DNA of 64,000 nucleotides from Pseudogemmatithrix spongiicola (lineage in GTDB: Bacteria > Gemmatimonadota > Gemmatimonadetes > Gemmatimonadales > Gemmatimonadaceae): NCBI RefSeq assembly GCF_030623445.1, contig NZ_CP130613.1, positions 2,046,001-2,110,000 of the forward strand, given 5' to 3'. The notes beneath the pieces were generated by a model. It had not been told where the DNA came from and did no database searches. It saw nothing but the letters and a program-made list of their open reading frames with translations. Within the stretch, counting starts at the first letter, position 1; every line of letters begins with the position of its first letter. The position numbers and the translations under genes are program-made. This document shows, piece after piece, positions 11,287 to 56,856 of the stretch.

Positions 11287-11312
11287 ACTGTCAGCCTATT
11301 CTGGAGGATTCC

Positions 11313-11744
11313 ATGGTGTATCGCACGACCCTGTCTCCCATCGGTTCCCTGCGCCGCGAGCTTGACCGCTTCTTCGACGACGCCGTGGCGCGCGTGGCGC
11401 CGATCACCGCGAGCTGGACGCCCGCCGTCGACATCCGTGAGACGAAGGATGCCTGGGAGTTCGCGGTGGAGATCCCCGGCGTCGACCCAGCGCAGGTCGA
11501 GGTGACGGCCGAGGCCCGCGTGCTGAAGATCCGCGGGCAGAAGGAGATCGTTCGCAAGGAAGGTGACGAGGATGCCCGCTGGCTAAGCACCGAGCGCATC
11601 AGCGGCGCGTTCGAGCGCAGCTTCCGGCTGCCGGCGCAGGTGCGGGAGGACGCGATCGAAGCGCGCTACGCGCATGGCGTGCTGACCGTGACGGTGCCGA
11701 AGGCGGAGGTGCCGGCGCGGAAGATCGAGGTGCGGACAGTCTAG
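11313..11744 (+). CDS. Hsp20/alpha-crystallin family small heat-shock protein
   Basis: A 143-residue small heat-shock protein. The alpha-crystallin domain spans about residues 35-140 (VDIRETKDAWEFAVEIPGV ... ARYAHGVLTVTVPKAE), including the C-terminal A-x-x-x-G-V-L-T-V signature. A short C-terminal tail ends KIEVRTV, with a loosely I/V-x-I/V-like motif for oligomer contacts. ATG at 11313 is preceded by a good GGAGG site. It acts as an ATP-independent holdase in the cytoplasm. It stands alone between divergent kinase genes and a convergent peroxiredoxin gene; a perfect inverted repeat lies just upstream. Confidence 0.93.
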   Translation: MVYRTTLSPIGSLRRELDRFFDDAVARVAPITASWTPAVDIRETKDAWEFAVEIPGVDPAQVEVTAEARVLKIRGQKEIVRKEGDEDARWLSTERISGAFERSFRLPAQVREDAIEARYAHGVLTVTVPKAEVPARKIEVRTV

Positions 11745-11753
11745 CGCATAACG

Positions 11754-11848
11754 GCAGATGTAAGATGTGAGATGTGAGATGTAAGAAAGGGCGCGCCGAG
11801 GGTTCGGTGCGCCCCACTTACATCTCACATCTTACATCTCACATCTGC
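11754..11848. repeat. Nested giant hairpin of GATGTGA tandem repeats between convergent genes
   Basis: Arm 11754-11785 pairs with 11817-11848 at 30 of 32 positions. Both arms are built from a 7-base unit (AGATGTGA/AGATGTAA) in tandem. Between them, 11789-11814 forms a second, GC-rich hairpin (GGGCGC/GCGCCC plus an inner stem). The whole structure sits between the stop codons at 11744 and 11852 and should fold on either transcribed strand. A two-way terminator role is inferred. Confidence 0.82.
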
Positions 11849-11851
11849 GGT

Positions 11852-12316
11852 TCAAAGCTTCGCGATCTCCGCCAGAATCTCGGAGTTCTCGCGCTTCGTC
11901 CCCGGCGTCTCCTCCACATAGCTCCAGCGCAGCACGCCGGCCTTGTCGACCAAGAAGTACGCGCGGTTGGAGAAGAACGTGCTCTCCATCAGCGTGCCGT
12001 AGGCGCGCGAGGCCTCGCGCTTGAAGTCGCTGAGCAGCTCGACGCCCATGTTGTACTGGGTCTTGAAGGCCTTGAGCGACGGCACGGCGTCCACGCTCAC
12101 GGGCAGCACCACCACGCCCTGGTCGGCGAATGAGGAGTAATCCTCCGTGAAGGCGCACATCTCGGCCGTGCAGGTCGAGGTGAAGGCCAGCGGGAAGAAG
12201 GCGAGCAGCACGTTCGCCTTGCCCTTGAACTGGGCGAGCGTGACGACCTCGCCGTTGGTGCTGTGCAGGGAGAAGTCGGGGGCCGGCGAGCCGACCGCGG
12301 GGACCGTGAGCGTCAT
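11852..12316 (-). CDS. Peroxiredoxin (AhpC/TSA, AhpE-like)
   Basis: A 154-residue thioredoxin-fold peroxidase. Seen: PAPDFSLHSTNGEVVTL near the N-terminus, and the active-site block FPLAFTSTCTAEMC with T46 and peroxidatic C49; a second Cys (C54) lies close by. The family reduces hydrogen peroxide and organic hydroperoxides using a thiol donor. The ATG at 12316 is chosen because the product then starts in the usual place for the family; a GTG at 12343 in the same frame would add nine residues. A conserved F-S-N-R-A-Y-F-L-V-D block supports the call. It lies downstream of tRNA-Ala and shares a convergent junction with hsp20. Confidence 0.88.
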   Translation of the reverse strand: MTLTVPAVGSPAPDFSLHSTNGEVVTLAQFKGKANVLLAFFPLAFTSTCTAEMCAFTEDYSSFADQGVVVLPVSVDAVPSLKAFKTQYNMGVELLSDFKREASRAYGTLMESTFFSNRAYFLVDKAGVLRWSYVEETPGTKRENSEILAEIAKL

Positions 12317-12394
12317 GATGGGGAATCTCTGGTGGAAAGGCACGGGTCGCGCCGACGACCGCCGACGCGACCCGAGATAAACGTCTGGACCCGA

Positions 12395-12467
12395 TGGAGC
12401 GTGCCGGGATCGAACCGGCGACCCCCTGCTTGCAAAGCAGGTGCTCTCCCAGCTGAGCTAACGCCCC
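12395..12467 (-). tRNA. tRNA-Ala (anticodon TGC)
   Basis: Read on the minus strand, 73 bases fold into a full cloverleaf: acceptor stem GGGGCGT/ACGCTCC (one G-T pair), D-arm GCTC...GAGC, anticodon stem CCTGC/GCAGG with loop TTTGCAA giving anticodon TGC, and T-arm GCCGG-TTCGATC-CCGGC. Discriminator base is A. No CCA is encoded. It lies between the terminator of the act operon and the peroxiredoxin gene; no integrase is nearby. Confidence 0.97.
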
Positions 12468-56650: not shown

Positions 56651-56670
56651 AGTTGGGAGTTGGGAGTTGG
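56651..56670 (+). repeat. Tandem GTTGGGA repeat, single arm
   Basis: AGTTGGGAGTTGGGAGTTGG contains about three tandem copies of the 7-base unit GTTGGGA, the same unit as in the hairpin at 62815-62887. No opposite arm is found nearby, so it looks like half of that type of element. It lies in the 222-base gap upstream of hppD; a 10-base palindrome AACTGCAGTT (56846-56855) ends the same gap and also occurs beside the 62815 element (62811-62820). Confidence 0.55.
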
Positions 56671-56856
56671 AAGCGAACGGCGACCGCATCACCGCGCGCG
56701 CTAGGCGGCGCGGTGCTCACCTCTCAGTTATGCGCCGCGGGCGCCGGTGCGGGCGCTGGTCCACCAGCGGCCCCACACACTCGCGTTTTGCCACGTCTGG
56801 ATGGGCATATCAACTCCGGTTCGGAGGACCCCTTCAATATACAAGAACTGCAGTTG

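Follow-up and report, generated by a model that had tools for sequence, protein, structure and literature searches.

The palindrome that fills the gap between an Hsp20 gene and a peroxiredoxin gene of Pseudogemmatithrix spongiicola belongs to a dispersed class of repeats, is not an isolated terminator, and extends a known phenomenon to another phylum. What the genomes display directly is the anatomy of the arrays (tandem 7-base units, here AGATGTR), their dispersal, a rule of placement relative to genes, positions that are partly conserved among relatives, and turnover of the unit, including turnover of both arms of a pair. The reading preferred here, to which we give roughly an even chance from the sequences, is that the arms of these dispersed arrays would be alike by template switching and homogenisation, and that the palindrome at this junction would serve as a bidirectional RNA 3'-end hairpin.

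Anatomy of the Hsp20/peroxiredoxin junction

The window, a stretch of 64,000 nucleotides, belongs to a genome of 3,257,781 bases in one contig (the source genome, G000). A gene of the Hsp20/alpha-crystallin family (an ORF at 11313-11744, + strand; PF00011, E 2.6e-21) here converges on an AhpC/TSA-type peroxiredoxin gene (11852-12343, - strand; PF00578, E 5.2e-33). They are separated by 107 bases, nearly all of which form a nested inverted repeat. From the left, an outer flank AACGGC (11750-11755, + strand) is followed by an array of four heptamers, AGATGTA AGATGTG AGATGTG AGATGTA (11756-11783, + strand); a GC-rich hairpin without a T-run, GGGCGCGCCGAGGGTTCGGTGCGCCC, occupies the interior (11789-11814; interior z -3.9); four more heptamers, AGATGTG AGATGTA AGATGTG AGATGTA as read on the - strand, form the right array (11819-11846); and the right outer flank, AACCGC (11847-11852, - strand), overlaps the peroxiredoxin stop codon by one base. 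Such a flank, AAC-N-GC, lies immediately outside the array in 21 of 44 sampled arrays of this genome.

Flanks included, the inverted arms (11750-11785 and 11817-11852) are 36 nt each, complementary at 33 of 36 positions (92%) and spaced 31 nt apart. The RNA of 11745-11855 folds at -78.9 kcal/mol on the + strand (z -14.5) and at -76.6 kcal/mol on the - strand (z -15.0), and none of 200 dinucleotide shuffles folded as well on either strand. The nested hairpin with repeat arms described in the earlier note is thus real, with z about -15 on both strands, and its inner GC-rich hairpin is present as described. The GATGTGA repeats by which that note named the arms are there too, but as heptamers AGATGTR they recur at many other loci. 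The symmetry it saw in the mismatches loses its special character: the two mismatches within the arrays are at the final base of heptamer units 1 and 2 (one A opposite C, one G-U wobble), and that base alternates between A and G (AGATGTG or AGATGTA) at other loci as well. Nor is the word 'terminator' supported in its canonical sense, as a scan of 11700-11900 found no site with a hairpin and a T-run on either strand. Positions 11300-12400 gave eight Rfam matches up to E 1, all of them to microRNA-precursor models and far below the gathering score.

Dispersal, inward pairing and placement

The site is one of many. A BLAST search of the genome with it returned 54 matches, and the exact two-unit pattern AGATGTRAGATGTR occurs 55 times, its reversed control not at all. 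The wider comparison covered 17 genomes of the genus, among them the closest relative (G002, 71% complete), and 179 genomes of the family; it used a degenerate frame, RGNYGKR in three copies, with the reversed pattern as control. Matches clearly exceed that control in nine of the 17 genus genomes (G000, G002, G003, G005, G007, G008, G010, G015 and G016), for example 77 against 2 in G000, 126 against 6 in G010, 140 against 5 in G008 and 63 against 0 in G005; in the other eight they are at or near control level (one match in G004, one in G013, five in G006). Exact AGATGTR dimers are confined to six of the 179 family genomes, every one in this genus. Some genomes of other genera nonetheless stand far above the reversed control (G157, 175 against 2; G174, 174 against 3; G175, 193 against 1), and units such as AGCCGGA and AGATGGA reach high counts in some of them. 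The reversed pattern is itself enriched in G021 (79 forward against 259 reversed) and G053 (3 against 202), and is therefore not a clean null everywhere; the excess suggests that these two genomes may hold other heptamer families.

Units are also mixed within the source genome, which has a second family, AGTTGKR, and a few AGACGGA units; AGATGTR, AGTTGKR and AGCTGTA coexist there. The window holds a second array, of the AGTTGKR kind (AGTTGGG AGTTGGG AGTTGGA, 56651-56671, + strand). A single AACTGCAGTT lies at 56846-56855; in G002 (L218) the corresponding place has a pair of copies, separated by 87 bases, that bound an extra heptamer element. Elsewhere, an array lies between a tRNA-Tyr and a tRNA-Gly gene (L038, 1501-1528; G000:C1:742457), and L058 has a looser stretch of heptamers after a tRNA-Cys gene.

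For arrangement and context, 83 sites with at least three strict units were sampled: 40 in G000, 20 in G010 and 23 in G008, the G010 and G008 stretches having been partly selected as pairs. Arrays are mostly of three to five units (sampled range, three to seven strict units). Counted in strict units, G000 has 20 arrays of three and 24 of four; G010 has 12 of three, 14 of four and seven longer; G008 has 26 of three, eight of four and three longer, two of its 37 arrays being counted twice in this and the other per-array counts. As the search minimum was three units and three is the commonest length in G008, these lengths do not establish that exactly four units are preferred.

Neighbouring arrays face each other. 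Among the 83 sampled sites, arrays less than 200 bp apart form 41 inward-facing pairs, no outward-facing pair and three same-strand pairs. Reading by hand gives the same picture, with six inward and no outward pairs in G000 (all 55 AGATGTRAGATGTR matches), 12 and none in G010 (among 100 of the 126 matches listed), 11 and none in G008 (among 100 of the 140 listed), and four and none in G005 and G016 together (among the matches listed). The matches listed for other genera include six inward pairs (G044, G060, G064 and G076) and, in G086, whose count is no higher than background, one outward pair. Of the 41 inward pairs, 38 fold with z below -4; the interior has a hairpin of its own (z below -2.5) in 17 of 39, and interiors mostly differ from locus to locus.

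How closely the two arms of a pair match is a subtler matter. In G000, two arms from one locus pair better than randomly combined arms (12 pairs, permutation p 0.0002); since these pairs span several unit families, this p is read as the sharing of a unit family. Compared within a unit family, same-locus arms match weakly better than those of different loci in G010 (p 0.18 by energy, 0.10 by identity) and in G008 (p 0.06 and 0.006, respectively). Fine-scale copying from arm to arm is thus not strongly shown: what makes the arms alike is membership of a local unit family, not base-by-base compensation.

Placement relative to genes follows a rule. By a home-made codon-usage gene calling, on which all site contexts are based, 77 of the 83 sampled sites fall in gaps between genes (24 convergent, 47 co-directional and six divergent); four lie inside an ORF call and two are of undetermined context. 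Divergent gaps account for six of 77 array sites against nine of 30 gaps of at least 40 bp in the window (Fisher p 0.005), so that arrays are depleted between divergent genes. For 83 of 98 scorable arrays (16 excluded) the nearer gene is the one on the 5' side. Of the 61 stop-side arrays, 57 have their edge no more than 50 nt from the stop codon; on the start side, 24 of 37 are as close as this to the start codon. A simpler rule, one array per gene 3' end with pairs arising only where genes converge, was rejected: co-directional gaps are bracketed too, and many arrays stand beside start codons. The same brackets between co-directional genes mean that the hairpin is not specific to the Hsp20/peroxiredoxin pair.

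Two brackets were seen to enclose an ORF. Both are in L059: an IS256-type transposase gene (PF00872; G000:C1:1157296-1158725), which by eye has inverted ends of its own, lies inside a heptamer bracket, and a gene for a 23S_rRNA_IVP four-helix-bundle protein (PF05635; G000:C1:1159851-1160424) lies within inward-facing arrays. The PF05635 locus is collinear and bracketed in G010 as well (L147); the genes on either side are presumably ychF-like and pyrophosphatase-like. That the arrays are transposon ends around an internal gene was considered and rejected, the IS256-type element being read as a later insertion and the PF05635 gene as native. The available text of a report on Coxiella describes an intervening sequence (IVS) with an S23 ORF, heptameric repeats, a 28-bp terminal stem and RNase III cleavage (PMC4990558). 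Three species have arrays of different units at the same place within a long predicted ORF (G000:C1:1439895, L196; L148; L170); it is aldehyde-dehydrogenase-like by eye, and the place may be a domain linker or the ORF a wrong gene call.

Kept addresses, changed spelling

The Hsp20 and peroxiredoxin genes are adjacent and convergent in ten of the 17 genus genomes; the remaining seven have a stretch without an Hsp20 match, cut by a contig end or lacking a peroxiredoxin close by. A hairpin is predicted at the junction in all ten, and in eight its fold is clearly better than shuffles (z -4.8 or lower), whereas the folds of G010 and G015 are barely so (z -1.9 and -2.4). By eye, six of the ten have heptamer arms, and each spells them differently: AGATGTR in G000, a mixture of AGAYGTR and AGACGGA in G002, GGACGGA in G005, AGACGGA in G008, AGGTGGG in G016 and CGGTGGA in G007. 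G003, G006, G010 and G015 have the hairpin without heptamers. The earlier note proposed a comparison with related strains, looking for arms that co-vary; at this junction the hairpin persists and co-variation fails, as the right arm of G002 is unchanged while its left arm carries several uncompensated changes. Base-by-base compensatory evolution is accordingly not supported here, and single-base compensation is not the rule. Other loci come closer to the expectation: at two of them both arms have switched unit together, and at a third the left arm has done so fully and the right arm in part.

Addresses are kept in part. Thirteen of 19 G002 array stretches map onto a sampled G000 stretch, 12 of the 13 at a G000 array; at the remaining one (L215) G000 has no array at the corresponding place, and six of the 19 have no match among the sampled G000 stretches. 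Junctions in common with a sampled G000 array, collinear on both flanks, number five of 20 in G010 (L146, L147, L148, L152 and L160) and four of 20 in G008 (L168, L170, L179 and L181), and L158 (G010) and L176 (G008) agree with a G000 array by one adjacent flank; 14 of the 20 G010 stretches and 15 of the 20 G008 stretches share no junction with the 40 sampled G000 sites. L173 and L185 were dropped as common addresses, having genes in common with G000 but another junction. In the 71% complete G002, with 40 of 268 candidates scored, seven of 12 flanks had no clear orthologue.

Alignments of G000 with G002 cover 11 of 13 sites (all but L209 and L215) and four of five (all but L224), L209 being read by eye. 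The unit family is identical in the two genomes at L206, L214 (the Hsp20/peroxiredoxin site, with its drifted left arm), L217, L218, L220 and L221. Both arms have switched together at 3026401, from AGTTGGG to the AGATGTG type, and at 2919397, from AGATGTR to AGCTGTR. The left arm at 2645923 is different along its whole length, and in G000 half of the right arm there is already AGCTGTA. Differences in a single array occur at 1876250, 881275, 443711, 2898533 and 2943174, and L213 has a clear right arm in G002 only. One G002 bracket (L209) corresponds to two G000 array sites 2.6 kb apart (240412 and 243091), which looks like a duplication or interruption of the locus in G000.

Mixture is common inside arrays as well: 13 of the 26 AGAT-type arrays of G000 are mosaic, the odd unit being outermost in one of 13, second in six of 13, third in three of 13 and fourth in seven of 12. 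The hairpin spacers of G000 and G002 at 263076 are exact inverses of each other, an outcome that template switching across a palindrome could leave; none of four other spacer comparisons revealed an inversion.

Origin and kin of the heptamer arrays

One way to understand these arrays, and the one preferred here, begins with their geometry. Paired arrays face each other across a gap and turn it into a single long, imperfect palindrome; its centre is the gap's native content, which may be a GC-rich hairpin, other intergenic sequence or sometimes a small gene. One arm would be copied onto the other by slippage during replication and by template switches across the palindrome, and units would be homogenised between loci; template switching is described as creating and maintaining hairpin stems in the part of the literature available (PMC8794818). 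Copying of arms together with homogenisation between loci would leave species that differ in spelling, partly at conserved addresses. Of the earlier note's two ways of keeping arms paired, by selection or by copying, it is copying that fits better. At the Hsp20/peroxiredoxin junction, a transcript of either gene that enters the far arm would fold into a stem of some 36 bp with the GC-rich hairpin as its cap; this stem might block readthrough or be processed by an RNase III-type activity, and the palindrome would thereby define or protect the shared 3' end of both mRNAs. Such a role for both neighbours cannot hold where brackets lie between co-directional genes. Arrays might act at the DNA level. 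A bolder proposition, possible but doubtful in our estimate, is that spelling at intergenic addresses across the genus is rewritten in concert, by an active homogenising process or by a co-evolving putative reader. Were it true, concerted rewriting would mean both arms of a palindrome at once, locus after locus, through template switching plus conversion between loci; and a single widespread class would take in the arrays of Xanthomonas, Nostoc, Geobacter and Gemmatimonadaceae, united by the bracket palindrome and not by the G-quadruplex.

A second perspective does away with function: slippage and palindrome template switching may simply spread arrays in tolerant gaps, and the placement rule would merely mark where they are harmless, away from promoters and outside ORFs. 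The depletion between divergent genes, the many mosaic arrays, the one spacer inversion, the weak fine-scale matching of arms and the near absence of arrays from several genus genomes (G004, G013 and G006) all agree with such a pure mutational by-product. We nevertheless hold it to be somewhat unlikely, because array edges crowd within 50 nt of stop codons (57 of 61) and, to a degree, of start codons (24 of 37), because tolerance alone hardly explains why arrays prefer one strand with respect to the gene end, and because 12 of 19 G002 stretches retain their address, some with a new unit. A putative heptamer reader (nucleoid-associated, or acting in termination or RNA binding) could have its sites rewritten genome-wide as its specificity changes, in the manner of uptake-sequence dialects, and the dominant unit does differ by species within a common frame, RGNYGKR, which is also the frame of the search; paired opposite-strand tandem sites are described for Geobacter metallireducens in the accessible part of that report (PMC2700814). 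A single reader sits poorly with match counts that vary from 1 in one species of the genus to 140 in another, and with AGATGTR, AGTTGKR and AGCTGTA side by side in G000, which makes this account improbable.

Mobility is the next candidate, and we think it quite improbable: each pair would be the two ends of a transposable hairpin of the MITE or REPIN kind. Dispersed copies with a recurrent outer flank (the 21 of 44 G000 arrays with AAC-N-GC) have that look, as has the 87-bp element of G002, absent from G000 at 56846-56855 and bounded by direct AACTGCAGTT copies; yet a deletion between 10-bp direct repeats could explain the same indel, array edges near gene ends and mostly locus-specific interiors are unlike an inserted unit, and the one transposase found inside a bracket belongs to the IS256-type element with its own inverted ends. 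Least credible, and very improbable indeed, are G-quadruplex elements, as proposed for Xanthomonas heptamers. Placement and size are as in those repeats, going by the available text (PMC4692102), and four GG runs occur in 15 of 33 G010 arrays and in 24 of 37 G008 arrays (two of the 37 counted twice). In G000, however, four GG runs occur in none of the 26 AGAT-type arrays, only three of which contain any GG, counting inside the arrays; four GG runs occur in two of 44 arrays overall and four GGG runs in none, which is purely an argument of composition. Integron attC-like sites, prompted by hairpins at stop codons, and a Rho-utilisation reading of the pyrimidine-rich arm were considered as well.

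Short repeats with some of these properties are known from several groups, and the accessible parts of the reports allow a comparison. TAACTGA heptamers of Beggiatoaceae, Cyanobacteria and Bacteroidetes are dispersed and intergenic, many just upstream of start codons; they differ from the present arrays in being direct repeats, one indirect repeat being reported in the main genome, and in keeping one unit across phyla (PMC4679880). In the P6b element of the Nostoc tRNA-Leu intron, degenerate heptamer repeats of two classes pair into a hairpin, but that is a single locus inside an intron (PMC3488679). As short sequences spelled differently between relatives, the arrays also resemble the DNA uptake sequences of Neisseriaceae. 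The latter occur as inverted pairs in terminators, are not known to be tandem heptamers and have far more copies per genome. Their differing spelling among relatives figures as 'dialects' in the title of one study (PMC3630211). Closer are the tandem 7-8 nt repeats of G. metallireducens, present in many copies and read as possible IHF/HU sites, two classes of which form opposite-strand pairs at variable distance and which, according to the available portion of the paper, were not found in G. sulfurreducens (PMC2700814); tandem form, unit length, copy number and opposite-strand pairing are alike, the unit sequences are not. For Gemmatimonas, no description of heptamer arrays of this kind was found in open-licence PMC literature.

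The closest kin are the heptamers of Xanthomonas and Nostoc, GGGAATC and GGGGA(C/T)T (Rehm et al. 2015, PMC4692102). In the available text of that study, arrays are intergenic and of about four units; they adjoin the gene on the 5' side, sense after stops and antisense before starts, and are rare between divergent genes. Xanthomonas has 70-75 inward-facing inverted pairs per genome, 83% in the same context in a relative, and Nostoc few pairs (PMC4692102). The present arrays are alike in their tandem 7-bp units, few per array; in lying between genes (77 of 83 sites), seldom between divergent ones (six of 77); in having the G-rich strand near the 5'-side gene (83 of 98 arrays); and in their inward-facing inverted pairs (41 inward, none outward, three same-strand). 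They differ in phylum and in a dominant unit, AGATGTR, without GG runs; here, moreover, one address can have different units in different species, and the two arms can switch jointly. The same text describes quadruplex formation in vitro, and a higher frequency of transcript starts or stops at repeats capable of a quadruplex than at controls; its authors favour the G-quadruplex for Xanthomonas and leave the function of these abundant bacterial repeats open (PMC4692102). The different units found at the same addresses across species allow a test of whether spelling is homogenised by copying or rewritten by selection. G000 offers a natural control for the quadruplex: placement, size and pairing are the same, and the dominant unit has no quadruplex G runs. 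With four GG runs in none of its 26 AGAT-type arrays, it represents a variant with the same anatomy and placement outside the quadruplex-forming class, and the best reading of the arrays is as a variant of the Xanthomonas-type repeat class in another phylum.
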